The notes under the pieces were generated by a model. The model worked only from the letters and a program-made list of their open reading frames with translations, made no database searches and was not told where the DNA came from. The position numbers were made by a program, and so were the translations under genes. A stretch of 64,000 nucleotides of DNA from positions 2,715,981 through 2,779,980 of the forward strand of contig NZ_LT629732.1 of the NCBI RefSeq assembly GCF_900104745.1, written 5' to 3'. Of the stretch, positions 37,684-60,656 are shown piece by piece (position 1 is the stretch's first letter; every line of letters begins with the position of its first letter). The stretch comes from Actinopolymorpha singaporensis. Its GTDB lineage: Bacteria > Actinomycetota > Actinomycetes > Propionibacteriales > Actinopolymorphaceae.

Positions 37684-38729
37684 TCCCACTCGAAACCGGG
37701 TCCCTGCGGAGCAAGCGCGCAGCCGCCCTCGAGTCGCGGGAACGCCGACGGCGACGACCGCAGGCCGGTCTCCAGCCAGACCGCGGTCGGTGCGCACAGC
37801 AGCAGGCTCAGCGCAGCCGGACCACCGCCGTGAGAGGCGTACGGTACGCCGAACGCCGAGGCCAGCGCTCCGACCGCGCGGATCTCGGTCGGCCCGCCCG
37901 CGCGGCGGAGGTCCGGCTGAACGATGTCGCAGCCACGGCGTTGGAAGAACTCACGGAACTGGCGGGCACCGTAGAGATTCTCACCCGCAGCGACCGGGAT
38001 GAGCAGCCGGCTGGTGAGTTCGGCGTAACCCGCGAAGTCCTGTGCGGGCAGTGGTTCCTCGAACCACGTCACGCCCAGCTCGCCGAACGCCTCGCCCCGG
38101 CGCAGCGCCTCGCTGAGTGTCAAGACCTGGTTGGCGTCGACCATGAGCGCGACGTCGGGGCCGACCTGCGACCGGACTGCCTCGATCCGGCGTACGTCGT
38201 CGTCCAGGTCACCGGCGCCCACCTTGATCTTCACCCCGCGAAAGCCCTGCGCGACCGCCTCGCCGCACTGCTGCCGGAGTTCGTCGAGGTCGTAGTTGGA
38301 CCAGCCGACCATCGCGTACGCGGGTACGCGATCGCGGTGGGCGCCCCAGAGTTGGTACGTCGGCACGCCGTGGGCCTTGCCCAGCAGGTCCCACAACGCG
38401 ACGTCGACCGCGCTGATGCCGAACGTCGCGAACCCCGCGGTGCCGTGGTACTCGGTCTCCATCTTCAGCGACTCCACGATCGCCGGGATCCGGGTGGCGT
38501 CCTGGCCGACCACCAGCGGAGCGAGCACCTCGTCGATGAAGACCGACAACGCCTTCGGCGCCCCGTCGATCCGCCCGAATGACGACGAGCCGCGCCCGAC
38601 CAGTCCGCCTTCGGACTCGATCTCCACGCTCACCGAACCGCCGCCGGTCAGGGTCTGCAGGGCGTCGCGGATCGGCCGGGCCGCGTGCGGGCGCACCGAG
38701 TAGGCCGTACGCACTTCCTTCACCCGCAT
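37680..38729 (-). CDS. Mandelate racemase/muconate lactonizing enzyme family protein
   Basis: 349 aa, enolase superfamily. The barrel shows G-V-K-I-K-V-G (KxK base), M-V-D-A-N-Q (Asp), W-F-E-E-P-L (Glu) and A-G-E-N-L (Glu) for magnesium, and an S-H-G-G-G histidine late in the barrel. These enzymes abstract the alpha proton of a carboxylate; sugar-acid dehydratase is most likely here. ATG 38729 (GGGGAAGA upstream) matches the family N-terminus; a GTG at 38786 overlapping the previous stop is possible. Confidence 0.83.
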   Translation of the reverse strand: MRVKEVRTAYSVRPHAARPIRDALQTLTGGGSVSVEIESEGGLVGRGSSSFGRIDGAPKALSVFIDEVLAPLVVGQDATRIPAIVESLKMETEYHGTAGFATFGISAVDVALWDLLGKAHGVPTYQLWGAHRDRVPAYAMVGWSNYDLDELRQQCGEAVAQGFRGVKIKVGAGDLDDDVRRIEAVRSQVGPDVALMVDANQVLTLSEALRRGEAFGELGVTWFEEPLPAQDFAGYAELTSRLLIPVAAGENLYGARQFREFFQRRGCDIVQPDLRRAGGPTEIRAVGALASAFGVPYASHGGGPAALSLLLCAPTAVWLETGLRSSPSAFPRLEGGCALAPQGPGFEWE

Positions 38730-38782
38730 GACTGTCTTCCCCGCCTCGTCTCGTTGCGTTGGTTCTGCGGCTTCGTACGCTG

Positions 38783-39961
38783 TCACCAGTCGGAGACGGA
38801 GTTGTCCTCCCGGCGGAGGATGTGCGTGCCCGCCATCTGATAGGGCTCGGCGAGTGCCGCCTCGTCGTCCAACTCCACGCCGAGGCCGGGGGATCCGCCG
38901 CTGTAGAGGTTGCCGCCCTCCAGCCGCATGTCGGTGGTCACGATGTCGGCGAGGATGTCCGGCCGCCAGGTGAGTTCCTGGACGGCGAACAGCGGTGTGG
39001 ACAGGTCGAAGTGCAGGCAGGCCGCGGTTGACACCGGCCCGAGTGGGTTGTGCGGGACCTGTTCGATGTAGTGCGTCTCACACCAGCCGGCGACTTTGCG
39101 TGCCTCGGTGAGGCCACCGCAGATGCACAGGTCCACCCGGCAGTAGTCCATCAGGTCCTGTTCGACGAGTTCGCGCCAGTCCCACTTGCTCGGAAGCTGC
39201 TCGCCGGTGGCGATCGGCACCGAGATGTGCTGGCGCAGGTAGGCGAACTCCGAGGGGTTCTCCGCCCGCAGTGGATCCTCGATGAAGAACGGCCGCATGG
39301 GCTGGAGCTCGCGGGCCAGTTCGATGGCGTACGGCGGAGTGGTGCGCTGGTGGAAGTCTACGCAGATCTCGACCTCCGGGCCCACCGCGTCCCGCAGCGC
39401 GCCGAAGGCCTCCACGGTCCACCGCACCGCTCGGGACTGTTCGTAGATGCCTTCCGCGCCCTGCCTGCTGCCCTCGCCGGCCCCGAACCGGATGAACTGC
39501 CAGCCCTGTTCGACCTGGCCCTTCGCGTAGTCGACCATCGCGTCGATCGCGCCGCGTGGGCCGTGGCCGGCGCCAGGTTGCTGAACGTGGCAGTAGCAGC
39601 GTGCGTAGTCGCGGGTGCGTCCGCCCAGCAGGTCGTAGACAGGGACGCCGAGTACCTTGCCGCGCAGGTCCCACAGCGCGATGTCGATGGCAGCCACAGC
39701 GGCGGAGTGGACGTGCCCGCCACGGAAGAAGTGGCCGCGCCACAGCGTCTGCCAGATGTGTTCGATCCGGGTCGGGTCCATCCCGCGGAGGATGGGTGCG
39801 AAGCTCTCGACCATCCCGCGTACCGCCAGCTCACGGCCCGTGACCCCGGCCTCACCGAGACCGGTCACACCCTCGTCGGTGTAGATCTTCACGAACGTGT
39901 AGTTGCGGCTCGGGCGCTCGCGGTCGTGGACCAGGAAAGTCTTGACGTCCGTGATCTTCAT
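38783..39961 (-). CDS. Enolase-superfamily sugar-acid dehydratase (mannonate/galactonate dehydratase type)
   Basis: 392 aa. It begins M-K-I-T-D-V-K-T-F like the D-galactonate/mannonate dehydratase group. Magnesium ligands: Asp in I-C-V-D-F-H-Q, Glu in F-F-I-E-D-P-L and Glu in A-T-G-E-Q-L; the catalytic His follows in V-P-H-N-P-L-G-P-V, and the H of V-D-F-H fits the mannonate dehydratase type. It is the first gene of the minus-strand operon. GAGGAG lies just upstream of the ATG. Confidence 0.85.
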   Translation of the reverse strand: MKITDVKTFLVHDRERPSRNYTFVKIYTDEGVTGLGEAGVTGRELAVRGMVESFAPILRGMDPTRIEHIWQTLWRGHFFRGGHVHSAAVAAIDIALWDLRGKVLGVPVYDLLGGRTRDYARCYCHVQQPGAGHGPRGAIDAMVDYAKGQVEQGWQFIRFGAGEGSRQGAEGIYEQSRAVRWTVEAFGALRDAVGPEVEICVDFHQRTTPPYAIELARELQPMRPFFIEDPLRAENPSEFAYLRQHISVPIATGEQLPSKWDWRELVEQDLMDYCRVDLCICGGLTEARKVAGWCETHYIEQVPHNPLGPVSTAACLHFDLSTPLFAVQELTWRPDILADIVTTDMRLEGGNLYSGGSPGLGVELDDEAALAEPYQMAGTHILRREDNSVSDW

Positions 39962-40283
39962 GAGTCTCCTCATGGACGTACGGGGCCCGGCGGGCCGGAC
40001 GCCCGCCGTGATTTCCTTCGATACTAGGGCGAACCACGCCCGAGTCGGTCGGTGGGCAAACGCTGTCCGTTGTCGGACAACTGTCGTCTGCCGTCGGCGG
40101 TGACGAACTGGACCGGCGCGGCCGGGCACTGCCCGCCGGGCTGCTGTTCAGGCGGGCAGTTGTCACAATGGGGTCCCGCTCGCATGCAGGCGCAAGCCGA
40201 GCTTGCCTGCGACAGTTCGGGTTTTGAAACGTTGCACAGGACACTGCTAGCGTGCCCCGTCCGGAACCGGCCGAGGAGGACTA
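39962..40283. promoter_or_regulatory. Divergent control region of the sugar-acid operon and MHS transporter
   Basis: The 322 bases hold no gene. Present are TGTCCG-TTGT-CGGACA at 40064-40079 overlapping TTGTC-G-GACAA at 40070-40080, the latter of the kind bound by FadR-type GntR proteins; and near the plus-strand start, a LacI-like site inside a promoter (separate entry). Confidence 0.55.
40224..40253 (+). promoter_or_regulatory. Promoter of the MHS transporter with a LacI-like operator
   Basis: TTGAAA at 40224-40229, 18 bases, TAGCGT at 40248-40253. TGAAACGTTGCA (40225-40236) is an imperfect palindrome centred on ACGT, as in LacI-family sites, and covers the -35. Confidence 0.55.
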
Positions 40284-46297: not shown

Positions 46298-47812
46298 ATG
46301 GCCGCGCCCCACCACGCTCCGGCGGTTCTGCGCACGAATCGGCCGCGCCGCCTGCGTTCGGCGTTCTTTGTCGTGGTGGCACTGCTGCTGGCGTTGTCCG
46401 GAGCGGCCTGCGCGGGTGACTCCGCGGACTCGACCGGCGGTGACGGGAAGCTCACCATCACCGTGGAGGGCCCGAACCAGTGGAACGACAGTGGTTCGTC
46501 GTTCGGCAAGCCCTGGGAGGATCTGGTCGCGGCCTTCGAGAAGGCCGAGCCCGGCATCAGGGTGAAGACCGTCGTCCTTCCCCTGAACAGTTTCAGCCAG
46601 ACGATCTCCACCCACCTGGCCGCCGGGACCGCGCCGGAGCTTGTCTTCAACCAGGCGCCGCACCAGCCCTACATGGTGACCGCGCTGGACGGCTACCTGA
46701 AGAAGCCGAACCCCTACATCAAGAAGGGCCCCGGTAGTCGACGGTGGCTGGACGTGTTTCGCAAGCGCTACTACGGAATCGGCAACCCTTCCAGTCGCAA
46801 TGCCGAAGGACATGTGGAGTTCGTACCGTTCAACCTGGTCGGCACCGGGATCTTCTACAACCGCGACGCTTTCGACAAGGCCGGGCTCAAGGCGCCCGTC
46901 GCGACCTTCGAGGATCTGATCGACGCGTGCGGACGGCTGAAGGCGGCGGGCTACACCCCGCTGGCGATGGACCGCTCCGACCTCGGCCCGGGCTGGACCA
47001 TGACGACGATCAGCGGGATGCTCCTCGACAGTTGGGTCGACAAGCTCAACGTCTACACCGTGGACGGCAAGCCTGGTAAGGCATTCTCGTCCACCGGTGC
47101 GCCGGTGGTCGCCGGGAAGTCGATGGCCAAGGCGGTGCTGACCGGTGAGCTCACCACGAGGACGCCCGAGGTGGTGGAGTCCCACAAGCTCATCAAACGG
47201 ATGTGGGACGCCTGTGTGGACAAGGACTGGTCCGGCAACACCGAAGGGCTCAACGGCGCGGTCGTCGGCCTGCGCGACTTCGCGTCCGGCAAGGCCGGGA
47301 TGGCGTGGGGTGTCAACTTCGGCGTGAGCGCGCTGAAGGACGTGAAGTTCTCCTTCGCCAGCATGCCCTTCCCGCAGGTCACCAAGGAGTCGACGCGGCT
47401 GGCCACAGGTGCGCCGGCGCGCTTCGGAGCCGGGGTCGGCGGCACGAGTTACATGGTTCCGTCGACCATCAAGGGCGACAGGCTGGCCGCTGCGGTCAAG
47501 TTCCTGCAGTTCGTGAGCACGCCTGCGAACATCCAGCCCTGGCTGTCCCGAACCGGCGGCATCTCCGCGGTCGAGGGAGCCAGCGGTGCGACTGCAACGA
47601 AGGCGTTCGCCGACGGTGACTGGGGTGACTCGATCCCGCTGGCCGTACCGGGAGGTCCGCCGGGCGTGACCACGCTCAGCCTGTACGAGGGTTGGCTACT
47701 CGGTACGAAGTCCCTGCCCCAGCAGGAGTCCTACCTGCAGGACATGTGGACCAAGGGCCAGCGACAGGCCGTCAAGGACAACAAGTGGGACAAGGAGCCG
47801 TGGGCGAAGTAG
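46298..47812 (+). CDS. Sugar ABC transporter solute-binding lipoprotein (family 1)
   Basis: 504 aa. Signal peptide with lipobox S-G-A-A-C; the extracytoplasmic domain has the family 1 layout, including Y-M-V-T-A-L-D-G-Y-L, Y-N-R-D-A-F-D-K-A-G-L and a late M-V-P-S-T. It should bind an oligosaccharide and pass it to the two permeases that follow. GGAAGGG is upstream of the ATG. The stop TAG overlaps the first permease start. Confidence 0.87.
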   Translation: MAAPHHAPAVLRTNRPRRLRSAFFVVVALLLALSGAACAGDSADSTGGDGKLTITVEGPNQWNDSGSSFGKPWEDLVAAFEKAEPGIRVKTVVLPLNSFSQTISTHLAAGTAPELVFNQAPHQPYMVTALDGYLKKPNPYIKKGPGSRRWLDVFRKRYYGIGNPSSRNAEGHVEFVPFNLVGTGIFYNRDAFDKAGLKAPVATFEDLIDACGRLKAAGYTPLAMDRSDLGPGWTMTTISGMLLDSWVDKLNVYTVDGKPGKAFSSTGAPVVAGKSMAKAVLTGELTTRTPEVVESHKLIKRMWDACVDKDWSGNTEGLNGAVVGLRDFASGKAGMAWGVNFGVSALKDVKFSFASMPFPQVTKESTRLATGAPARFGAGVGGTSYMVPSTIKGDRLAAAVKFLQFVSTPANIQPWLSRTGGISAVEGASGATATKAFADGDWGDSIPLAVPGGPPGVTTLSLYEGWLLGTKSLPQQESYLQDMWTKGQRQAVKDNKWDKEPWAK

Positions 47813-48786
47813 TGACCGCAGCGGTCGAGCACCGGGGCGGCTCACAAGGTCGTGGTGGCCAGCCGAGTCCGGAAGGGCGGACCGGTAGGCGCCGACGGCG
47901 CACCCGCTTCCCGTGGTACGCCTATCTCGCGCTCGCCCCGCTCTTCGTGACCCTCGGGGTGTTCGCGTACTACCCGGCCGCCAGTGGAATCTGGCACTCG
48001 TTCTACGAGTGGCGGCCGGGGTTCGACTCGCCCTTCGTCGGGCTGGGCAACTACGCCACGATGATGGCCGACGACCTGTGGTGGAAGTCGTTCCGCAACC
48101 TTGGTTTCATCTTCGTGTTCGGTGTCACCATCGCGTGGGCGCTGCCGCTGCTGGCGGCCGAACTGATCATCAGCCTGGACAGCAAGCGGGCGCAGTTCAC
48201 CTTCCGCACCCTGCTGATCGCGCCGATGGCGTTCCCGGGAGTGGTCACGGTCTTGTTGTGGGCGGCGATGTACGAGCCCGGCAACGGCGTGATCAACCGC
48301 GTGCTACGCGGCGTCGGCCTGGTCTTCCTCGCGCAGAACTGGGTCGGTGACCCGAAGTACGCGCTGATGTCCCTGCTGTTCATCGGGTTCCCGTTCGTGG
48401 CCGGCCTGCCGTTCCTGGTGTTCCTCACCACCTTGCAGAACGTCTCGGCGGAGATCTTCGAGGCGGCCGAACTCGACGGGTGCGGCCGGTTGCGCCGGTT
48501 GGTCGCGATCGACCTGCCGTTGATGGCCGGCCAGCTGAAGCTGCTGGTGTTCCTGGCCACGATCGGAGTTCTGCAGTATGGCTTCGCGGCCTACCTGCTC
48601 ACCGGTGGCGGGCCCGACAACGCCACCCAGGTGCCCGTCCTGCGCATGCTGGGCGTGGCGTTCCAGGGCAGTCAGTGGGGTTACGCCGCGGCCTTGTCGA
48701 CCACCTTGTTCGCGATGACCATCGCGCTGAGTGTCGTGATCGTGTTCGTACGCAGGAAGGGCGACGCCGATGTCCGCCCGCTCTAG
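47812..48786 (+). CDS. Sugar ABC transporter permease, MalF type
   Basis: 324 aa with six helices after an Arg-rich cytoplasmic N-terminus (R-R-R-R-R). The EAA loop that docks the ATPase reads E-A-A-E-L-D-G-C-G-R-L-R-R. GTG 47812 overlaps the previous stop as TAGTG; GTG 47800 is an alternative. The following permease overlaps it by 17 bases. Confidence 0.86.
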   Translation: MTAAVEHRGGSQGRGGQPSPEGRTGRRRRRTRFPWYAYLALAPLFVTLGVFAYYPAASGIWHSFYEWRPGFDSPFVGLGNYATMMADDLWWKSFRNLGFIFVFGVTIAWALPLLAAELIISLDSKRAQFTFRTLLIAPMAFPGVVTVLLWAAMYEPGNGVINRVLRGVGLVFLAQNWVGDPKYALMSLLFIGFPFVAGLPFLVFLTTLQNVSAEIFEAAELDGCGRLRRLVAIDLPLMAGQLKLLVFLATIGVLQYGFAAYLLTGGGPDNATQVPVLRMLGVAFQGSQWGYAAALSTTLFAMTIALSVVIVFVRRKGDADVRPL

Positions 48787-49618
48787 TCGCCGTCGCCGTC
48801 GCCAGCAGGCCGTGATCAAGGCCGTGCTCGGCCTGATCGTGTTCGTGGGGCTGTTCCCGTTCCTGTTCATGCTGGTCACCTCCTTCAAGACCAACCAGCA
48901 GTACTACGAGTCCTGGTGGCTGCCCACCTTGCCGCTGCACCTGGAGAACTACACCCGCGCCTGGATCCAGATCCGCCCGTACTTCGTCACGTCGGTCGTC
49001 GTGGCGGCAGCGGCCATCGCCGGGGCGCTCGTCCTGTGCACGGTCGCGGCGTTCGTCTTCGCCCGCTACCGGTTCTTCGGTCGCAGCGTGTTGTTCGGGC
49101 TGGTCGCCGCCCTGCTCATGGTGCCTGGCATCGCGAGCCTGATCCCGATGTTCGTGCTGATGCGTGACCTCGGCCTGCTGAACACGCGCGTCGTTCTGGT
49201 GATCCCACATCTGGTCGGCGGGGCGGTCCTCGGGACGCTGCTGATGAAGACGTTCGTCGAGCAGTTGCCACAGGAGTTGTTCGACGCTGCCCGGGTCGAC
49301 GGTGCCGGCGGGCTCCGGCTGTTCGCGTCGATCATGCTGCCGCTGTCGTTGCCGGTGGTCGGGACGATCGCGCTGGTCACGGTGATCGGCGTCTGGAACG
49401 ACTTCTTCTGGCCGCTGCTCACGGTCACCGAGAACGAGCTGCGCACGGTGTCGGCCGGACTGCAGTTCTTCCAGACCCAGAACGCCACGGAGTACGGGCC
49501 GCTGTTCGCGGGCTACGCGATCGCCAGCGTCCCGCTGCTCGTGTTGTTCGTCTTCTTGTCGAAGTACTTCCTTGCCGGTCTGCAGGGCGGAGTGCCCGGG
49601 ATGGGCGGCAACAAGTGA
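48770..49618 (+). CDS. Sugar ABC transporter permease, MalG type
   Basis: 282 aa, six helices, N-terminal R-R-R-R-R-Q-Q, and the EAA loop F-D-A-A-R-V-D-G-A-G-G-L-R. It pairs with the MalF-type protein. No ATPase gene follows; a shared MsiK-like ATPase is expected. The next gene begins 59 bases later, so the secreted enzyme is probably in the same operon. Confidence 0.88.
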   Translation: MSARSSRRRRRQQAVIKAVLGLIVFVGLFPFLFMLVTSFKTNQQYYESWWLPTLPLHLENYTRAWIQIRPYFVTSVVVAAAAIAGALVLCTVAAFVFARYRFFGRSVLFGLVAALLMVPGIASLIPMFVLMRDLGLLNTRVVLVIPHLVGGAVLGTLLMKTFVEQLPQELFDAARVDGAGGLRLFASIMLPLSLPVVGTIALVTVIGVWNDFFWPLLTVTENELRTVSAGLQFFQTQNATEYGPLFAGYAIASVPLLVLFVFLSKYFLAGLQGGVPGMGGNK

Positions 49619-49677
49619 GGACGACCGAACCGGTGACGCCAGGTGCGCCGCCGAGGACAACCCAGTGGAGGTCCGTC

Positions 49678-52600
49678 ATGCTCGGGCGGTTGCGTCACCG
49701 AAGCCTGCTCACGCTCGCGTCCGTGCTCGCCGGACTCCTCGCGGTCACCACGGGTATGTCGACGGCTGCGGTCGCATCGCCCGCTGTCACCGTGCCGGGG
49801 AACGCGTCCGCGAGTGCCGACGCGAACGCGGACGGCATCGCGGCGGTGTCGGCGCAGGAGACGACGGTGGAGGTCAGCGGAAGGGCGACCGAGGCGGGCG
49901 ACCAGGTGTCGATCTACGCCCTCGGCGCCGAGGCGGACGCGGCCGACTACACCGGCGGTGAGTTGGTGGCGCGGACGTCCGCGGGAGCCGGTGGTGCGTT
50001 CGACGCATCGTTCCCCCGAACCGACCAGGCGGGGCACGACCGGCTGTACGACCAGTACGTCGCGGTGGTCGGTTCTGGCGCGGAGGCGAAAGTCGTGGGC
50101 GGCCCGAGGTACGTCGACCGGCTCGACTTCGCTCCCGCACGTGACTTCGACTATCCGAAGGCGGCCAGCAAGAAGGGCCTGCAGGTGGAGATGACCGACG
50201 ACGCGGAGGAGCTCGGCGTCCAGCACGCCGGGATCAACGTGGCGTTCAACGAACTGATGCGCAACGGGCCGGGCGACGACCCCTCGAAGGTGGTGTCGTT
50301 CGAGTCCGGCGGCCGGACCTTCTACTTCGACGCGGACGCGGTCGCCCGCCTCGACGGGCAGATCAAACCGCTGTCGGACAACGGCATCCTCGTCAACCTC
50401 ATCCTGATCCTCTACCGGAGCGGCGACCCGAACTCCGCCTGGCCGGTTCTGCACGACCCGGACGCGACGGTGGGCTCCGGCACGGTCTACGCATTCAACA
50501 CCCGGACGGCGGAGGGGGTGGCGTACTTCACCGCGGCCATGGAGTTCCTCGCCGACCGTTACACCCGCGCGGACCAGGCGCACGGACGAGCCGTCGGCTA
50601 CATCGTCGGGAACGAGGTCGACGCGCAGTGGGTGTGGGCGAACTCCGGTGACAAGCCGTTGGGCGAGTTCCTCACCACCTACGCCCGGGCGGTGCGAATC
50701 GCCTGGCAGGCGACGCAGAAGTTCTGGGCCGGCGCCCGCACCTACATCTCGCTCACCCACTGCTGGACCACTGTGTGCGGGGACAATCCCGACCCTGCCA
50801 ACCCGACGAGGTTCTACGCGGGCAAGGACGTGATCGACCAGTTGAACGCGCTCACCAAGCGCACCGGTGACGTCGGCTGGAACGTGGCCTACCACCCGTA
50901 TCCGCAGGACCTGTTCGACCCGGCGTTCTGGAACGACCAGGCGGCGACGCCCGGCTTCGACACGCAGCAGATCACGTTCAAGAACATCGAGGTGCTGCCG
51001 GACTACCTCGCCCAGGACGACCTGACCTATGCGGGTTCGAAGCGGCGGATCATCCTGTCCGAGCAGGGCTGCAACACCCCCGGCGACACAGCAGACGCCG
51101 AACGCCTGCAGGCCGCCTGTTATGCGTACGCCTACTACAAGATCCGCTTCCTGGACGGCATCGACGCGTTCATACTCCACCGGCATGTCGACCACCAGCA
51201 GGAGGGCGGGCTTCGGCTGGGCCTGTGGACCTGGGACGACCAGCGGTCCGAAGCGGCGATGCCGGGTCGGCACAAGCTCAGCTACGACGTGTTCACCGGC
51301 ATCGACACCGCGCGGTCACTGGAGGTCACCGACTTCGCGAAGGCCGTGATCGGAATTCGCGACTGGGCAGACGTCATCCCCGGCTTCGATCCGGGCAAGC
51401 TCGCCGAGCGAACACCGCCCACCCAGGTCGGTACCAGGAACGGAGCAAGGCCGGTACGGCCAGACGTCCTCGCCGACTTCGAGACGGGTCTCGACGGCTG
51501 GCGGGTCTCCGACAACGCGGCAACTGTACAGACGGTGGCCGGCGGCTACCACGGCCGGCGGGCGCTGCGGGTGCGGTTCGACGCCGCAGCCCTGCCGGCC
51601 TGGTCTCGCGATGCCAAGACGTGGAAGGGCGCGGACGTGGTACTCCCCAAGCCGGTGAACGCGGACGCGACGCCGCGGCTGAGTCTCGCCGTGCGGGTGC
51701 CGAAGCCGGCGGCGGGGGAGTTCAAGCCCGGCAACGCCTTCTACGCCAAGGTTCGTGCGTACGCGGGCGACGGGCAGGTGGCGTACGGGCTGGCCAGGCT
51801 GGATCCCGATCGGGGCTGGAACGTTCTGTCCCTGGACCTGTCCGGTTGGCAGCCGAGATCCCAGCTCGCCCGGGTGAAGGTCTGGGTACGCGGATCCACC
51901 GACGACGACTGGCGCGGCAGCTTCGACCTGGACTACGTCGCGTTGTCCGGCGAGGTCGCGCCGGCAGGGGCGGTCCCGAACATCGACGTCTCGGCGACGC
52001 TCGCCGAGCACCACCCTGTCGGGTCGAAGCTGTCGGTGACGGTGACCAACAACGATGTACGGCCGCTGGCAGGCAAGCTGGCCTTGCAGCCCTGTGGCGG
52101 TGTGTCGGTCACGCCGGAAACGCTGGACGTCGGCGGCATCGGGACCGGCGCAGGCGAGACGTTCGACACCACCGTGACGGCTTTCGACCCGGCCGACCCC
52201 GACCACCCGGTGATCTGCGCGGCGTACGAGGGACTGGTGCTTCCGGTGGAGTTCACGGTGCCACCTGCCACGCCCACGTCGCTGTTCACCTTCGACGACG
52301 GTGTTCAAGGCTGGGTCGCGGGGGAGAACGTCACGTCGGTGGCTCGCGTGGGCAGCTTCGCCAACGGGCCCGGGTCTCCACACGGTGGATCCGGTGCGCT
52401 GGAAGCAACCGGAGCTGCGGCGCCGGCCTCGGCACGCAGAACCGTCGCCGTCGACCTGACCTCCCCGCTGGACCTGTCCGGCGCGAAGAGCGTCGTCGCC
52501 TGGGTGGACTCCTACGGGGGTGCGCCCGGAGCGACCGGCTACGAGGCGACGCTGACTGTGGTCAGCGGGTCCGAACGCCGGTCGACGACAGTGAGCACCT

Positions 52601-52755
52601 TCACACCGGACAGGTGGAACGAACTTCGGGTCGACGTCGGCGACTGGGCCCAGCGCAACAAGGTGACCAGGCTCGAGGTCGGCTTCCGGGCGATCGGGTC
52701 GGACACGCCCTGGAGCGCGAGGTTCCAGGTCGACGACGTCGCCTACCTCGACTGA
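49678..52755 (+). CDS. Large secreted DUF5722 protein, probable glycosidase with two carbohydrate-binding-like domains
   Basis: 1025 aa. The signal peptide ends near residue 34. After a beta-rich domain (about 60-145) comes the DUF5722 barrel (about 150-590), which has G-N-E-V-D (Glu313) and L-S-E-Q-G-C-N (Glu462), placed like the acid/base and nucleophile of clan GH-A enzymes. Two jelly-roll modules follow, each beginning with an F-D/E-x-G-x-x-G-W motif (about 600-760 and 865-1025), separated by an Ig-like domain. It probably cuts an outside polysaccharide whose products are imported by the ABC system directly upstream. GGAGG precedes the ATG. Activity is inferred, not shown. Confidence 0.75.
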   Translation: MLGRLRHRSLLTLASVLAGLLAVTTGMSTAAVASPAVTVPGNASASADANADGIAAVSAQETTVEVSGRATEAGDQVSIYALGAEADAADYTGGELVARTSAGAGGAFDASFPRTDQAGHDRLYDQYVAVVGSGAEAKVVGGPRYVDRLDFAPARDFDYPKAASKKGLQVEMTDDAEELGVQHAGINVAFNELMRNGPGDDPSKVVSFESGGRTFYFDADAVARLDGQIKPLSDNGILVNLILILYRSGDPNSAWPVLHDPDATVGSGTVYAFNTRTAEGVAYFTAAMEFLADRYTRADQAHGRAVGYIVGNEVDAQWVWANSGDKPLGEFLTTYARAVRIAWQATQKFWAGARTYISLTHCWTTVCGDNPDPANPTRFYAGKDVIDQLNALTKRTGDVGWNVAYHPYPQDLFDPAFWNDQAATPGFDTQQITFKNIEVLPDYLAQDDLTYAGSKRRIILSEQGCNTPGDTADAERLQAACYAYAYYKIRFLDGIDAFILHRHVDHQQEGGLRLGLWTWDDQRSEAAMPGRHKLSYDVFTGIDTARSLEVTDFAKAVIGIRDWADVIPGFDPGKLAERTPPTQVGTRNGARPVRPDVLADFETGLDGWRVSDNAATVQTVAGGYHGRRALRVRFDAAALPAWSRDAKTWKGADVVLPKPVNADATPRLSLAVRVPKPAAGEFKPGNAFYAKVRAYAGDGQVAYGLARLDPDRGWNVLSLDLSGWQPRSQLARVKVWVRGSTDDDWRGSFDLDYVALSGEVAPAGAVPNIDVSATLAEHHPVGSKLSVTVTNNDVRPLAGKLALQPCGGVSVTPETLDVGGIGTGAGETFDTTVTAFDPADPDHPVICAAYEGLVLPVEFTVPPATPTSLFTFDDGVQGWVAGENVTSVARVGSFANGPGSPHGGSGALEATGAAAPASARRTVAVDLTSPLDLSGAKSVVAWVDSYGGAPGATGYEATLTVVSGSERRSTTVSTFTPDRWNELRVDVGDWAQRNKVTRLEVGFRAIGSDTPWSARFQVDDVAYLD

Positions 52756-52770
52756 CGAGTGTGGGGGCGT

Positions 52771-53829
52771 TCAGGTGAGCAGGAGGACGGCATAGGCCGC
52801 GAGCCAGTGCTCGACCATGTAGTCGCTCCCCGCGACATGCGGCAACGCGACGTCGGCATGACGCCGCATCGCCGTGAGAGCGGCGTCCACCCGAGGGTCG
52901 TCCCCGGGAAGGGACTCGGCGATCCGGCGCCAGCACCACGCGCGGCTCGCGTTCAGGCCGTGCAGGTGCGCGATCTGGCCGTCGCTGTCGTCCGACACGA
53001 CCGCAGGGGTGAACAGGGCCGCCGGGCTTGCGTCGGCGAGTCCGGGCAGGAACCGTTCGAGCCAGTTCGGAAACTCCTCCGCCGGCATCAGCTGGGCCAT
53101 GAGTTCGGCCTCGGTCAGCGCCGGTGACAGGAAGTCGCTGCCGGATGGCTCCCACGCGCCGGGGTAGTCGCGGTCGTCGCCGAACCACCGGTGCGTGGCC
53201 GTTACGAGTGCGTCCAGCAGGTCAGGGGCGCCGTCAACGGCACGCATCCGGGCGTACGGAAGTGACAGGGACACGGCGAAGGCGCTGTTCGAGTGGATGC
53301 CGTACCGCACCGGATAGGTCGCGTTGGGTAGCCACCGGAGGAAGTTCCCGGTCAGGGTTTCGGCCAACGGTGTGAACCGTTGTGACCACCGCCGGGCGTC
53401 CGGGTCGTCCCAGCTCGCGAGCTCGTGAGCAAGGCGGAGTGCCCACCCCCACCCGTAGGGGCGCTCGCGGCGACCTCCGACCCGGTCGACCATGAACGCG
53501 GCCTCGGCGGCCAGGCCGTCGGCGCTGAGGTGGCTGTCGAGGAGGGACCGGATCTCCGCCTCCGGTAGCGCGCCGACGGGGACGCCGCGGCCGGCCGTTG
53601 CGAGCAGGCGCACCAGCAGCCAGTACATCTCCACGCACGAGTGCCAGTCGTAGCTGCCGTAGAAGACCGGGTGCTGTGCTCGCGGCCGGTGGGGGAAGTC
53701 ACCCGGCTCCTGCATCGTGTGCGGGACGGCGTACGGGAACTCGCGGTCGATGTTGTCCATCGCCACCCGTGCGTAGCCGGCGGCGTCCGCCTCCAGCAGT
53801 TCCCGCCACTCCTGCCGCTCCTCGATCAC
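52771..53829 (-). CDS. DUF2891 protein, (alpha/alpha) barrel
   Basis: 352 aa, no signal peptide. Conserved DUF2891 stretches: F-Y-G-S-Y-D-W-H-S-C-V, Y-G-W-G-W-A-L-R-L-A, R-Y-G-I-H-S-N-S-A-F-A, W-E-P-S-G-S-D-F-L-S-P and H-L-H-G-L-N-A-S-R-A-W. The many buried aromatic and acidic residues suggest a sugar-processing alpha-barrel enzyme. GTG start with GAGGAG about ten bases upstream. It faces the DUF5722 gene end to end and may use its products. Confidence 0.8.
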   Translation of the reverse strand: MIEERQEWRELLEADAAGYARVAMDNIDREFPYAVPHTMQEPGDFPHRPRAQHPVFYGSYDWHSCVEMYWLLVRLLATAGRGVPVGALPEAEIRSLLDSHLSADGLAAEAAFMVDRVGGRRERPYGWGWALRLAHELASWDDPDARRWSQRFTPLAETLTGNFLRWLPNATYPVRYGIHSNSAFAVSLSLPYARMRAVDGAPDLLDALVTATHRWFGDDRDYPGAWEPSGSDFLSPALTEAELMAQLMPAEEFPNWLERFLPGLADASPAALFTPAVVSDDSDGQIAHLHGLNASRAWCWRRIAESLPGDDPRVDAALTAMRRHADVALPHVAGSDYMVEHWLAAYAVLLLT

Positions 53830-53884: not shown

Positions 53885-54634
53885 TCAGGCGTCGACGACG
53901 GGGTACTCCGGCGCCGGCGGCATGCCGGTGTAGCGGTGACCCGGCCCCAGATAGCTCATGGTCACCGCGCGGCGCGGATTCCCTGACGTGTTCGCCGCGC
54001 TCCCGTGCAGCAACAGGCTGTGGAAGAACAACGCCGAACCGCGTCTCATCGGTACCGGCACCAGCGCGGACGGGTCGTAGTGCTCGGCCGGTACGACGAA
54101 GTCGTCTCACGTCTGCACGTGCGGCAACGCGCCGTGCCGGTGACTGCCGGGGATGACCGTCAGGCAGCCGTTGTCCATGGTGGCGTCGTCGAACGGGATC
54201 CAGCACGACCACAGCGACATCGGCTCGATCGGCCAGTACGGCGAGTCCTGGTGCTGACCCTTCTCCGAGCCGACCGCCGCCGGTTTCATCAGCGCGGTGG
54301 CGCGGAACAGCCGCGGCGGTTCACCGACGAGCGACCGGACGAACCGCAGCACCTTCTCGCTGGTGATCAGCCCGTGCAGCAGCTCGTCGTGGAACAGCCC
54401 GTCCACCTTGCGGATGTCCCCGCCGTCGGGGCGTACTTCGCCGGACCGGTCGAGCGCGGGCTCCCGCTGCAGTCGGATGCCGTCCGGAGCCGCCAGTCGG
54501 CCGCCGGCGTACTCGCTGAGGCGAGCGGCGTAACGCGCACAGTCGTCGGCGCCGACCAGACCCTCCACCAGGAAGAACCCGTCGCGCCCGGCCTGCTCGC
54601 TCACCTGTCGCCCCGCCGCCACGTCGCTCACCAT
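53885..54634 (-). pseudogene. Phytanoyl-CoA dioxygenase-like gene with an in-frame TGA
   Basis: The frame from ATG 54634 (GGGGAGG upstream) reads a PhyH-type iron/2-oxoglutarate dioxygenase. The first 175 residues contain G-Q-H-Q-D-S-P-Y-W with the H-x-D iron ligands. TGA at 54107-54109 interrupts it, yet the same frame continues with 73 more residues, F-F-H-S-L-L-L-H-G-S and A-V-T-M-S-Y-L, the third iron ligand and the 2-oxoglutarate arginine region, to TGA 53885. One point change (for example from CGA or TGG) explains the break. Unless read through, the protein lacks the third ligand and is inactive. Confidence 0.8.
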
Positions 54635-57102: not shown

Positions 57103-57471
57103 GACCTTGGACGCTAGTGCAGGCGCCCGCGACCCGTCCACGGCCCGTGCGCCGCGTGCCCGGGGTCGGCCGTGTCCTTCGCACCCGGGAAGGGCGGTGC
57201 ACTCCTACTCGAAATAACGCGAAATGGGCCAGCTTTTTGTTGAGCGCTCAGCACTTGAAAATTCAGTCCCTAATTCCGCCTCATAATTTGAAGCCAATGC
57301 TGTCCGAAGCTGGCCACCCCGCTTCCCCGTGTATTGACTCCCGTCGTACGCTCAACGCCTCCGGCGGGGGAATCGTGTGTGTCGCGCCAACCGAATTGTC
57401 GTCAGTAGGAAAACGAACTGCCCTATAAACGTGTTTGTCGGCGGTTCGATGCTTTCGAAGGGCTGGTGAAG
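57103..57471. other. Relatively AT-rich intergenic region between the esterase and sugar ABC operons
   Basis: No gene in these 369 bases, whose middle is markedly richer in A and T than the rest of the window. Besides the LacI-type site there is a nine-base inverted repeat, GGCCAGCTT at 57227-57235 and AAGCTGGCC at 57307-57315, that brackets that site. TAGCGT at 57111-57116 (minus) is the probable -10 of the hydrolase. TATAAA near 57424 may serve the plus strand, without a good -35. Confidence 0.5.
57238..57253. promoter_or_regulatory. LacI-family (CebR-like) operator
   Basis: TGTTGAGCGCTCAGCA, a 16-base palindrome with one mismatched pair and the GAGCGCTC core of the streptomycete CebR site. 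No lacI gene is in the window. Confidence 0.65.
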
Positions 57472-58794
57472 ATGGCGTCTGTGACCAGAAGGTCGCTGCT
57501 CAAGGGGGCCTTGGCGGCGGGAGCTGCGGTCGCCGGCGGGTCGGTTCTGGGTAGCTGTGGCCAGGCGCCGAACTTCAATCGCGGGGTGAAGAAGACCCTT
57601 AATTTCTGGGCATTTACCGACTCGCGGATCGCCTGGCAGAAGAAAGCGTTCGAGCTGTACAAGAAAGAGAAGAATCCGGACTTCGAGATCAACTGGCTCA
57701 TCCTGCCGTTCACGCAGATGCACGACCAGTTGCTCATTACCGCCCAGGCCGGATCCGGCGGCCCGGACATGGCCGACGTCGAAATCAGTCAGTTCCCCCG
57801 TTACATCAAGGGGGACGTTCTTTTTGTCGATCTGGCGGCAAAGCTCAAGCAGATGGGTGAATGGGACAACCTCTACCATCCGTCCGCGACCGACCCCTGG
57901 ACCTGGCGCGGCCGTACGTACGGCATCGGCAACGAACTGAACGCCTGCCTGCTCAGCTACCGCTGGGACGTGTGGAAGAAGGCGAAGGTCGACACCAACA
58001 TCTCCACCTGGGAGCACTTCGCCGAGGAGGCGAAGCGCTTCCACCGTGACACCGGCAGCTACCTGATCGACCAGGCCTACCTCGACTGGAGCCAGTGGTG
58101 GATGCAGACGCTGCAGCAACGCGGTGGCTTCTTCCACCCGAACGGCCATCCGGCCTTGGACACCCCCGAGGGCGTCCGCACGCTGACGTGGATGCAGAAC
58201 GCGATGAAGGCCGGGTGGTCGACCCTCCGACCGACGGGTCAGTCCTACAACGTCGCGCTGTCGCAGGGCAAGATCGCCTCGCTGATCGGCCCGTCCTGGC
58301 AGTTCAGCGGGTACGTCCAGCAGAACATCCCGGAGACCAAGGGCAAGTGGCACCTGATGCCGTTCCCGCGGTGGGAGGCGGACAGCGGCGCGCGCACCGC
58401 GACCTGGGGCGGCACCGGCGTGACGGTGCTCAAGACCGGCAAGTACGCCGAAGAGGCCCGCGACTTCGTGTTGTTCGCGCACACGTCGGCGCGGGCGCTG
58501 CTGGACGACTTCGAGATCCGGCAGGTGTGGCCGACCTACAAGCCCGCGTTCGCCGACAAGCGGCTGTCCCAGCCGCTGCCGTTCTTCGACAACCAGCGGG
58601 TGGGCGCCTTGATCCACCAGGTCTCACCGGAGATTCCCACCGCGTACATGTCGCCGTACTGGCCGGAGACCACCAGCACCTTCGTGCGGGTGGGCCTCAC
58701 CCCGCCGATGCAGAACCTGCGCATGTCGCCGCGGTCGGCGCTGACCGCGGCGCAACGGGAGTCGGCGGACACCATCAGCTTCGTGACGGCGTAG
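57472..58794 (+). CDS. Sugar ABC transporter solute-binding lipoprotein (family 1)
   Basis: 440 aa. Tat-like T-R-R-S-L-L-K-G-A and lipobox V-L-G-S-C. The mature domain has T-L-N-F-W-A-F-T-D, G-P-D-M-A-D-V-E and the late W-G-G-T-G-V-T-V, as in family 1 sugar-binding proteins. The first 130 codons use aat, ctt, gaa and att more than the rest of the gene. ATG 57472 is preferred (AAGGG nine bases upstream) over GTG 57466. Two permease genes follow. Confidence 0.86.
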   Translation: MASVTRRSLLKGALAAGAAVAGGSVLGSCGQAPNFNRGVKKTLNFWAFTDSRIAWQKKAFELYKKEKNPDFEINWLILPFTQMHDQLLITAQAGSGGPDMADVEISQFPRYIKGDVLFVDLAAKLKQMGEWDNLYHPSATDPWTWRGRTYGIGNELNACLLSYRWDVWKKAKVDTNISTWEHFAEEAKRFHRDTGSYLIDQAYLDWSQWWMQTLQQRGGFFHPNGHPALDTPEGVRTLTWMQNAMKAGWSTLRPTGQSYNVALSQGKIASLIGPSWQFSGYVQQNIPETKGKWHLMPFPRWEADSGARTATWGGTGVTVLKTGKYAEEARDFVLFAHTSARALLDDFEIRQVWPTYKPAFADKRLSQPLPFFDNQRVGALIHQVSPEIPTAYMSPYWPETTSTFVRVGLTPPMQNLRMSPRSALTAAQRESADTISFVTA

Positions 58795-58819
58795 GGCCGA
58801 GGGAAGGAGAGGTTGCCTG

Positions 58820-59758
58820 ATGGCGACGTCGACATTGAGTGCGCGCGTGTCCCGACCGCTGGCCCCGGCGCGGACGTGGTGGTGGCGACGACAGAGGAAG
58901 GTGGCGCCCTATCTGTTCATCGCGCCGTTCTTTCTGCTGTTCCTGGTGTTCGGCCTGTATCCGATCGTCTACTCGTTCATCCTGAGCTTCACCAAGGGCT
59001 TCGGGTTCGAGCACCGGACGTTCGTGGGACTGGGCAACTACATCCACTTGATGTCCGACCCGCGGTTCCTGATGGCGCTGCGCAACACCACCATCTACGC
59101 GCTCGGCAGCGTGGTCCTGATCGGCGGCCTGTCCCTGCTGATCGCACTGGCCATCAACTCCCGGTCGGTGCGCTGGAAGACGTTCTACCGGACCGCGTTC
59201 TTCTTCCCGGTGCTGACCTCGGAGGTGGTCATCACCGTGATCGCCGCCCGGATCCTGGACGATCAGTTCGGTCTGCTCAACACTGCGCTCGGATGGTTCG
59301 GCGTCGGGCCGTTCGCCTGGCTGACCGACCCGAAGCTGGTGATGCTCGCCATCGTGCTGATCGGTGTGTGGACCTGGACCGGCATCAACGCGTTGTACTG
59401 GATGGCCGGCCTCAACGGCATCGACGACGACCTCTACGAGGCGGCCTCGATCGACGGGGCCAGCAGTTGGCAGGCGTTCCGTCACATCACCCTGCCGCTG
59501 CTGAAGCCGATCGCGTTGTTCGTGGTCCTGCAGGCGATCATCGGCTCGTACAACCTGTTCGCCCTGCCGTTCCTGCTGACCAACGGTGGGCCGTCGGACG
59601 CGTCGCTCACGGTGACGCTCTACATCTACAACCAGGGCTTCCAGTTCTTCAACGTCGGCTACGCGAGTGCGATCGCCTACGTGATGACGTTCTTCCTGCT
59701 GATCGTGTCGTTGGTCAACATCAAGGTCTTCCGCGGCAGGTCCGCGCCCGGCGAGTGA
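58820..59758 (+). CDS. Sugar ABC transporter permease, MalF type
   Basis: 312 aa and six helices; EAA loop E-A-A-S-I-D-G-A-S-S-W-Q-A-F. GGAAGGAG lies upstream of the ATG. Works with the adjacent permease and binding protein. Confidence 0.88.
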   Translation: MATSTLSARVSRPLAPARTWWWRRQRKVAPYLFIAPFFLLFLVFGLYPIVYSFILSFTKGFGFEHRTFVGLGNYIHLMSDPRFLMALRNTTIYALGSVVLIGGLSLLIALAINSRSVRWKTFYRTAFFFPVLTSEVVITVIAARILDDQFGLLNTALGWFGVGPFAWLTDPKLVMLAIVLIGVWTWTGINALYWMAGLNGIDDDLYEAASIDGASSWQAFRHITLPLLKPIALFVVLQAIIGSYNLFALPFLLTNGGPSDASLTVTLYIYNQGFQFFNVGYASAIAYVMTFFLLIVSLVNIKVFRGRSAPGE

Positions 59759-59768
59759 GGTGGAGTAA

Positions 59769-60656
59769 GTGGCAGTCATTCACAAGGTGTCCGCGCGGAC
59801 TTACGTCGAGACCGCCCCGGCGGTGGGGACGAGGCGACGCTGGCCGGCCATCTCGTTCGTCGTCGTCAACGTCCTGCTGCTGGTCGGCGTCCTGGTCGAG
59901 GTGTTGCCCTACCTCTACATGGCGTTCAGCGCGTTCAAGAACAACGCGGAGATCTTCGGCGTCCCGCTCACTCTGTGGCCGCGGACCTGGACGTTCACCA
60001 ACATGACGCAGCTGTTCCAGGGCTTCCCGGTCGCCCGGTGGATGCTCAACACCGCGATCGTCGCGGTGGTGGGCACGTTCCTCGCGGTGATGCTCGCGTC
60101 GCTTGCGGGCTACGCGTTCGCCAAGCACGACTTCAGGTTCAAGAACCCCCTGCTGTTCATGATGCTGGCCACCATCCTGCTGCCCAGCCAGGTGCTGCTG
60201 GTGCCGCAGTTCCAGATCATGCGAACGCTGGACTGGTTCAACACCTACGAGGGCCTGATCATCCCGCGTGCGGTCACGGCGTTCGGCATCATCCTGATGC
60301 GGCAGTACACCCTGTCGATCCCGAACGAGCTGCTCGACGCCGCCCGGGTGGACGGCGCGAGCGAGTTCGGCATCTGGTGGCGGATCGTCGTACCGCTGGT
60401 CCGTCCCGGCCTGGCCGTGCTCGGCATCCTGACGTTCCTCGGCCTGTGGAACGACTACTTCTGGCCGCTCATCATCACCACCGACCCGAAGATGTTCGTC
60501 ATGAACCTCGGGATCTCCTCGTTGATCGGACCGTACGACTTCCGCTACGGAATGTTGCTGTCCGGTGCGCTTCTTGCGTCGCTGCCGGTGATCCTGGTGT
60601 TCATCTTCTTCCAGAAGCAGTTCGTGGCCGGGCTGACGAGGGGTGCCCTCAAGTAG
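59769..60656 (+). CDS. Sugar ABC transporter permease, MalG type
   Basis: 295 aa, six helices, EAA loop L-D-A-A-R-V-D-G-A-S-E-F-G-I. GTG start with GAGGTGGAG upstream, ten bases after the previous gene. No ATPase gene follows. Confidence 0.88.
   Translation: MAVIHKVSARTYVETAPAVGTRRRWPAISFVVVNVLLLVGVLVEVLPYLYMAFSAFKNNAEIFGVPLTLWPRTWTFTNMTQLFQGFPVARWMLNTAIVAVVGTFLAVMLASLAGYAFAKHDFRFKNPLLFMMLATILLPSQVLLVPQFQIMRTLDWFNTYEGLIIPRAVTAFGIILMRQYTLSIPNELLDAARVDGASEFGIWWRIVVPLVRPGLAVLGILTFLGLWNDYFWPLIITTDPKMFVMNLGISSLIGPYDFRYGMLLSGALLASLPVILVFIFFQKQFVAGLTRGALK

Follow-up and report, generated by a model that had tools for sequence, protein, structure and literature searches.

The secreted DUF5722 protein of Actinopolymorpha singaporensis, encoded behind a carbohydrate ABC importer, is supported by structure prediction as a GH-A-type glycosidase, a predicted cutter of sugar chains, and it probably takes part in the breakdown of a rhamnose-containing glycan, with the exported enzyme cleaving inside the glycan, the ABC system importing the pieces, and an alpha-L-rhamnosidase of family GH78 removing the rhamnose within the cell. 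Evenly balanced, in our judgement, is the broader proposal that DUF5722 is an undescribed clan GH-A family for rhamnose-containing glycans in Actinomycetota and Bacillota, serving the importer-rhamnosidase pathway and also, in a PslG-like manner, a surface-polysaccharide cluster in Promicromonospora. Computed in this study were the fold, an invariant pair of glutamates and the ABC linkage, as well as, in relatives, a rhamnosidase linkage and a shared operator. The Pfam entry for the family (PF18989) gives no function, a literature search found no paper naming DUF5722 or PF18989, and, among the matches listed, the literature on rhamnan-degrading enzymes does not name the family. Fold, catalytic residues and an operator in common with rhamnosidases together make DUF5722 a specific predicted enzyme with a short list of candidate substrates, and internal cutters of rhamnose-rich polysaccharides would serve both cell-wall and exopolysaccharide analysis.

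The host is a soil-type actinobacterium, and the window (the whole stretch of 64,000 nucleotides that was analysed) holds an operon in the order binding protein, two permeases and secreted DUF5722 protein, with the following features:

46298..47812, + strand, ABC sugar-binding lipoprotein (SBP_bac_1, PF01547, 9e-24, above cut-off)
47812..48786, + strand, ABC permease A (BPD_transp_1, PF00528, 9e-7, above cut-off)
48770..49618, + strand, ABC permease B (BPD_transp_1, PF00528, 4.7e-17, above cut-off)
49678..52755, + strand, secreted DUF5722 protein, 1025 residues (PF18989, 1.4e-136, 456 bits, residues 180-587)
50614..50616, + strand, codon of Glu334, putative acid/base in the GNEVD that follows strand 4 (invariant in 85/85)
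51061..51063, + strand, codon of Glu483, putative nucleophile in the LSEQG of strand 7 (invariant in 85/85)
51400..52752, + strand, C-terminal part, likely carbohydrate-binding modules (CBM_4_9 / Mann_GBD_bact, weak in this protein, with better scores in relatives)
52771..53829, - strand, DUF2891 protein (PF11199, 2.6e-118, 395 bits), judged to lie outside the system

An earlier reading from the sequence only had described a binding protein and permease set followed in one operon by an exported 1025-residue protein, and both the open reading frames and the Pfam matches above cut-off bear this out. The binding protein runs from ATG 46298, in a frame open from 46163, to a stop codon at 47812 that overlaps by one base the GTG start of permease A (47812), and its LSGAAC motif is, by our own reading, lipobox-like. 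The DUF5722 frame is open from GTG 49615, overlapping permease B, and the ATG at 49678, preceded by GGAGG, gives the 1025 residues; owing to these two starts, the glutamates previously numbered E313 and E462 are residues 334 and 483 of the open frame. A binding lipoprotein and two permeases make up the set of a carbohydrate ABC importer, presumably of the CUT1 type, and no ATPase gene lies in the operon. Promoter and terminator scans gave results at chance level. The binding protein is 84-90% identical within Actinopolymorpha, and the binding proteins encoded close to DUF5722 in actinomycetes of other genera are 39-68% identical to it; a sequence search of solved structures returned no relative at E 1e-10. 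The proposed tie of DUF5722 to an ABC importer also stands, the two being adjacent in five of seven long-type relatives and linked in other genera too, with a different gene order in Kribbella. Neighbourhood genes were called by codon usage; an earlier clustering of all open frames had been swamped by antisense frames.

Residues 76-595 of the DUF5722 protein were predicted with high confidence (pLDDT 96.8, pTM 0.95), and an earlier model built from seven close sequences (pLDDT 55.7) was discarded. In clan GH-A, by definition, strand 4 ends with a conserved Asn-Glu pair and strand 7 with a conserved Glu, and the predicted model has a (beta/alpha)8 barrel in which strands 251-256 and 404-409 (barrel strands 4 and 7) carry N258-E259 and E408, in model numbering. 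The two glutamates that had been placed in GH-A-like positions from the sequence thus fall at the ends of these two strands, and their retention across the family, set beforehand as a test, was complete, both being invariant in all 85 aligned DUF5722 sequences. Among the best 50 fold matches listed, residues 107-504 of the model resemble structures of the GH39, GH1, GH10 and GH53 type (Z 21.5-25.8); a family outside those that VIA-align lists could fit too. GH39 tops the matches listed with the Bacteroides cellulosilyticus protein 5jvk (Z 25.8 over 311 residues, 3.4 A; Foldseek 6.5e-11), to which DUF5722 is 14% identical, and GH1 and GH10 rows stand between it and the PslG entries (Z 22.8-22.9), a few Z units apart. 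By sequence, hmmscan of the window protein at E up to 10, with HMMER filters that drop most weak matches, returned DUF5722 and CBM_4_9 only, with no GH39 model, and a profile of the 85 DUF5722 sequences found no solved chain, 5jvk included, at E up to 5; since the profiles match neither a GH39 model nor a solved protein, DUF5722 looks like an unassigned family.

PslG of Pseudomonas aeruginosa, a GH39 enzyme of clan GH-A, shares the barrel fold and the arrangement of a Glu acid/base and a Glu nucleophile, but DUF5722 is only 15-16% identical to it over the structural alignment, carries other domains and, in actinomycetes, occurs mostly with an importer rather than with polysaccharide synthesis. 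PslG is described as a retaining endo-beta-glucosidase whose substrate, Psl, has L-rhamnose in its repeat (PMC11912335). Two putative carbohydrate-binding modules had also been proposed for the DUF5722 protein, and the matches in its C-terminal part touch only the first of them. In the window protein the match is weak, CBM_4_9 falling below cut-off (E 2e-4, 22.2 bits against 25.9). Relatives give better scores, 10 of 26 members matching Mann_GBD_bact at E up to 1, with a best value of 1.4e-8, and a further match is to 1wky, a solved mannanase, at E 5e-4.

The link to rhamnose comes from relatives. A scan of a genome collection confirmed 159 stretches encoding DUF5722 relatives, in phyla as far apart as Actinomycetota, Bacillota, Verrucomicrobia and Planctomycetes; the 80 best of them were retained. 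At least 13 of 21 Actinomycetota and Bacillota genomes searched encode an alpha-L-rhamnosidase of family GH78 no more than 12 kb away from DUF5722, against 0.40 expected; GH78 is present in 21 of 91 DUF5722 loci, 11 of these 21 GH78-bearing loci being close relatives. In two loci from Jiangella an L-rhamnonate dehydratase takes the place of GH78 (for a Jiangella locus, with a score that passes the NCBIfam cut-off), Nonomuraea-type loci bring together a LacI-type regulator, an ABC importer and rhamnosidases, and the rhamnose-linked members are spread across the clade that contains the window's DUF5722 protein. None of 45 loci from other phyla carries GH78, GH106 or RgpF, and the three DUF5722 genomes from those phyla that were searched have no GH78 anywhere, which shows that the link is not family-wide. 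No GH78 turned up in the further six Actinopolymorpha loci that were looked at, two of which had been seen twice. Genome-wide presence of GH78 was rejected as a discriminator, being found in 12 of 12 DUF5722-bearing relatives yet also in 47 of 85 genomes without DUF5722.

A candidate operator, TTGAAANNTTTCAA, is present, with at most one mismatch, in 14 of 25 actinomycete loci (36 sites altogether) and nowhere in shuffled sequence. In 11 loci it precedes the rhamnosidase and also, at a distance of 18-35 bases, the binding-protein gene upstream of DUF5722, so that in Streptosporangiaceae-type loci one operator is common to the rhamnosidase and the DUF5722 operon; in Wenjunlia, where a DUF5722 gene lacks an importer, it stands about 110 bases ahead of that gene. 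The operator was derived by aligning intergenic stretches, a choice made with the 11 Streptosporangiaceae-type loci already in view, and only the sites in L061, L069, L077, L163, L022 and the A. singaporensis genome are independent of that choice. Ten Bacillota loci have none (1.0 expected by chance), and the window has only one match with two mismatches, at 40224 (0.08 expected). A strict-score palindrome search gave one, unrelated, match.

Within the window there is no GH78 or GH106, and no rhamnosidase or LacI regulator adjacent to or co-regulated with the importer. The A. singaporensis genome has four GH78 matches, the nearest more than 0.5 Mb from the operon, and two L-rhamnonate dehydratases; one GH78, 52% identical to that of Nonomuraea, lies beside a LacI-like gene and the genome's one operator site, far from the window. 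In Actinomycetales, a reconstruction has a LacI-type regulator, RhaR, controlling the ABC transporter rhiLFG and alpha-L-rhamnosidases for rhamnose-containing oligosaccharides (PMC3870299). By kind, these are also the genes of the Nonomuraea-type loci, whereas the window's genome has regulator and rhamnosidase elsewhere; in the available text of that paper a search for 'DUF' returned nothing, and no DUF5722-type secreted enzyme was noticed.

We infer the activity, its endo action, the substrate and the keeping of the clade's role by the window's member. Using Glu334 as its acid/base and Glu483 as its nucleophile, the exported protein would act by the retaining mechanism of clan GH-A and break a rhamnose-containing glycan at an internal bond, while its C-terminal modules would keep hold of the chain. 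Uptake of the oligosaccharide pieces would fall to the binding protein and the two permeases; the likely inside trimmer, a GH78 rhamnosidase whose gene lies elsewhere in the genome, would strip the rhamnose, and the freed sugar would be degraded via L-rhamnonate. An alpha-L-rhamnosyl bond is axial, and the known enzymes of clan GH-A act on equatorial (beta-D-type) bonds, so the cut is expected at a beta-D-hexosyl linkage in a repeat that bears rhamnose, as with PslG, rather than at the alpha-rhamnosyl one. For the same reason we hold it unlikely that DUF5722 is itself an endo-rhamnosidase cutting alpha-L-rhamnosyl bonds of rhamnans, despite its place in a Promicromonospora surface-polysaccharide cluster beside rhamnan synthesis (RgpF) genes, ABC-2 export genes and GH78, and beside GH78 or GH106 in other loci. 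GH187 was considered as a possible rhamnanase and dropped, the one paper with that term among the matches listed concerning fucoidan-degrading enzymes.

That Promicromonospora protein, which by our reading appears to have an N-terminal membrane anchor, together with the three DUF5722 genomes without GH78, might instead suggest remodelling of the cell's own surface polysaccharide, as by PslG within the Psl cluster; the window and most actinomycete loci examined pair DUF5722 with importer genes and not with glycosyltransferases, and we consider this improbable. Exo action, or action on small glycosides (for example as a diglycosidase on flavonoid or saponin rhamnosides, with the importer taking up the disaccharide), would suit the rhamnosidase linkage and the presence of GH1 exo-beta-glucosidases and a GH39 glucosidase among the fold neighbours, but the export signal and C-terminal binding modules point to a polymer, and we consider it unlikely.

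The sequence-only reading had instead joined DUF5722, the importer and DUF2891 in one full glycan pathway with DUF2891 trimming inside. Its outside cleavage, by a predicted GH-A-type enzyme, and its link to import survive; the inside trimming by DUF2891 is not supported. The DUF2891 gene does face the DUF5722 gene, on the opposite strand, convergent and 15 bases apart, but of the proposed four-gene order only the pairing of DUF5722 with the importer is kept, DUF2891 adjoining in three of eight long-type loci, all from three closely related Actinopolymorpha genomes. It has its own upstream partners (PhyH, GFO/IDH/MocA and a hydrolase), follows DUF969/DUF979 in 11 of 16 other loci, has neither GH78 nor GH106 in any of 17 loci, and is kept in the G003 genome, where DUF5722 is down to a 113-residue remnant and a search of the genome for close relatives of the binding protein found none. 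A single pathway including DUF2891 is thus very unlikely; because it adjoins DUF5722 in three close relatives only, accompanies DUF969-DUF979 mostly elsewhere and survives the loss of DUF5722 and importer, DUF2891 is judged to lie outside the DUF5722 system and seems to belong to something else. The available text of the DUF2891 literature gives no activity. In Campylobacter it is the third gene of cj0552-4, a DUF969-DUF979-DUF2891 set (PMC12795558), while the window's copy has neither partner beside it; among solved structures, DUF2891 matches the chain 8ieu (E 1.7e-66).

Open frames and Pfam bear out the sequence-only reading's account of the importer genes, of the DUF5722 protein with its 1025 residues and of the DUF2891 gene convergent to it, and both DUF families have a single match apiece in this 6.40 Mb, single-contig genome (window at C1:2715981-2779980). 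The two glutamates which that reading put in GH-A-like places (Glu334 and Glu483 in open-frame numbering) are kept without exception across an 85-sequence alignment (85/85 rows) of the window's protein, four further relatives and 80 scan loci, the best 80 of 159, with the Kribbella soli gene entered twice (L022, L069). The scan used two peptide patterns, one containing the first glutamate, but the other one alone is found in 67 of the 85 rows, so the invariance was not built in; in the four remote short-type DUF5722 proteins examined, the pair is retained within NEVN and LTESG. No Pfam GH family matched the window's DUF5722 protein at E up to 10, and no solved chain matched the 85-sequence profile. 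A weak relative from another genome of the phylum (L014) reached 30.9 bits against DUF5722 (cut-off 30.5) and 21.8 bits against Glyco_hydro_cc (cut-off 21), which ties the family to known glycosidases.

A structure model from the alignment (pLDDT 96.8, pTM 0.95) has a barrel that matches 5jvk (GH39) at Z 25.8 and both GH39 xylosidases and PslG at about 22–23, the same range in which GH1 and GH10 structures fall; Foldseek gave E 6.5e-11 against 5jvk. Glutamates at strands 4 and 7 are a hallmark of clan GH-A, and in the model Glu334 directly follows strand 4 and Glu483 lies on strand 7, so that the GH-A-like places proposed earlier are borne out by structure prediction. Based on the model match, the placement of the glutamates and the negative profile searches, the family is assigned to clan GH-A by predicted fold and residues, and not to GH39 by sequence, and we consider it highly likely that DUF5722 is a glycosidase of this clan. 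Secreted hydrolase, importer and inside trimming together make a system of a familiar kind, in which the enzyme family is the unassigned part.

Gene-order conservation was found in part. Among seven long-type relatives, fetched with 19–20 kb, the binding protein and both permeases adjoin DUF5722 in five (L018, L020, L021, L022, L023), and this set does not adjoin it in the other two (L019, L024) or in four of four short-type loci. Since the order of these genes in Kribbella differs from that in the window, the linkage has outlived rearrangement; the exact order was thus not retained there, and DUF2891 adjoins in three relatives only. Across 43 loci from actinomycetes and Bacillota, with the window among them, the two permease clusters occur in 29 and 28 and the binding-protein cluster in 25, counts in which three places are entered twice (L058/L021, L065/L024, L069/L022) and transporter clusters can merge paralogues. 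In G003, a genome of the same genus, DUF5722 is reduced to a 113-residue piece (L142 7871-8209, 15 kb examined), the family was not found genome-wide, and nothing closer to the binding protein of the first importer turned up than a match with 30% identity (E 1e-4). In A. alba (L065 6068-9274), a beta-N-acetylglucosaminidase gene (PF07555) lies directly upstream of DUF5722 and no importer adjoins, so this member may act on another substrate.

The proposal that DUF2891 is a partner in the glycan pathway did not hold up. Of 97 relatives, 36 have DUF2891 and 12 have DUF5722, and DUF2891 follows the same two genes in 11 of 16 loci outside Actinopolymorpha, these being DUF969 and DUF979 (Pfam, two loci checked). 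The same DUF969-DUF979-DUF2891 order is described for Campylobacter in PMC12795558, where the DUF969/DUF979 pair is suggested to carry 5-oxoproline. Moreover, the DUF2891 gene group is intact and the second importer retained in G003 after DUF5722 decay. DUF2891 more likely belongs to a small-molecule pathway. Upstream of it, on its own strand, are genes for a phytanoyl-CoA dioxygenase-like (PhyH) protein, a GFO/IDH/MocA oxidoreductase and an alpha/beta hydrolase. A second importer lies past this group on the opposite strand. Three features of the window outside the operon and DUF2891 were noted:

53885-54634, minus strand: phytanoyl-CoA dioxygenase-like gene, interrupted in frame by a stop codon at 54107-54109, past which the frame continues
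57466-60656, plus strand: second ABC sugar importer, divergent from the PhyH/GFO/hydrolase group, then a lipase-like hydrolase and an SDR gene
about 37788-39892, minus strand: two enolase-superfamily proteins, some 6 kb before the operon

The stop position is a sense codon in two related genomes, one of which (L018) has a break close to the beginning of the gene, and the second importer's binding protein keeps its place beside the group in three relatives. The enolase-superfamily pair scores 121 and 93 bits against the L-rhamnonate dehydratase model, far under the cut-off of 393; both are sugar-acid dehydratase relatives, which may be unrelated to the operon.

The gene neighborhoods of relatives point to rhamnose. 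In Nonomuraea, Microtetraspora and Streptosporangium the order is a LacI regulator and, divergently, a GH78 rhamnosidase, two permeases, the binding protein and DUF5722. In 9 of 11 Streptosporangiaceae-type loci the LacI gene is followed by a short DUF5722 (e.g. L063 252-1793, about 515 residues, 150 bits), a paralogue that possibly acts as a second enzyme on this glycan; similar short forms occur in one further genome (G007) and in three from the Kribbella genus group. GH78 lies near DUF5722 in 21 of 91 loci scanned, 11 of them of Streptosporangiaceae type, and further genera with this pairing are Pseudactinotalea, Promicromonospora, Microbacterium, Kribbella, Lederbergia and Paenibacillus, plus a MAG. 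Within 12 kb, GH78 accompanies DUF5722 in at least 13 of 21 actinomycete and Bacillota genomes, versus 0.40 expected from GH78 numbers, where the genomes were picked for genus coverage (non-random, non-independent), the count was read from coordinates with contig numbers not matchable in every genome, one nearby match is weak (G504, E 9e-6) and one GH78 gene is split (G053). An L-rhamnonate dehydratase relative accompanied by an oxidoreductase gene is found in two Jiangella loci (426 bits in L060, cut-off 393) and Pseudactinotalea, and the MAG locus (L084) holds GH106, GH78 and an apparently ribose-type ABC set. In Promicromonospora panici, a GH78 gene and a DUF5722 protein whose N-terminus has a hydrophobic stretch sit in a polysaccharide synthesis cluster with four RgpF-type (rhamnan synthesis) proteins, multi-domain glycosyltransferases, an ABC-2 exporter, a Wzz-type protein, an epimerase, a bacterial sugar transferase, a nucleotidyl transferase and a sulfotransferase-like gene. 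This single case resembles the setting of PslG, described in PMC11912335 as an endo-glycosidase within the cluster making its own rhamnose-containing substrate.

In the branching order of a FastTree tree (midpoint root), actinomycete and Bacillota proteins group together with one Anaerolineae protein, separate from those of Verrucomicrobia, Planctomycetes and Armatimonadetes, and rhamnose-linked members are scattered across the former group, around the window's protein. GH78, GH106 and RgpF were found in none of 45 other-phylum DUF5722 loci, nor was GH78 found genome-wide in Lacipirellula, Chthoniobacter or a Verrucomicrobium; the DUF5722 substrate may differ outside the actinomycete and Bacillota clade.

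For the window's system itself, we regard a rhamnose-containing glycan as the probable substrate, and the clan's chemistry suggests that the bond cut is other than the rhamnosyl bond itself. The genome has four GH78 matches, one weak, and two of its genes pass the cut-off for L-rhamnonate dehydratase (708 and 437 bits). The second of them is 69% identical to its Jiangella counterpart and, as in Jiangella, has an oxidoreductase-like gene after it (a name read from sequence, as is that of the LacI-like gene below). No GH78 lies within the 64-kb window; the genome does have the parts for rhamnose breakdown, though not together. The main weakness of the rhamnose reading for this genome is a missing operator at the window's operon. 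The palindrome TTGAAANNTTTCAA is almost unchanging when the regions between LacI and GH78 are aligned across the 11 Streptosporangiaceae-type loci, each of which also has one site 18–35 bases before the binding-protein gene that precedes DUF5722. With at most one mismatch it was found at 36 sites in 14 of 25 actinomycete loci, 33 of them in the 11 loci used to derive it, and at none in Markov shuffles, 10 Bacillota loci (1.0 expected) or 45 other loci (0.3 expected). The search found no site near the window's operon; the genome's only one lies between a GH78 gene (52% identical to that of Nonomuraea) and the divergent LacI-like gene, so the operon is controlled in another way or through a site that has changed. 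In Wenjunlia, one site precedes the start of a DUF5722 gene without an adjoining importer by about 110 bases. In Kribbella soli, the operator also occurs (L022 1560, L069 18454, L163 9979-10006) between two unassigned large proteins and near GH78 matches 9–18 kb from DUF5722.
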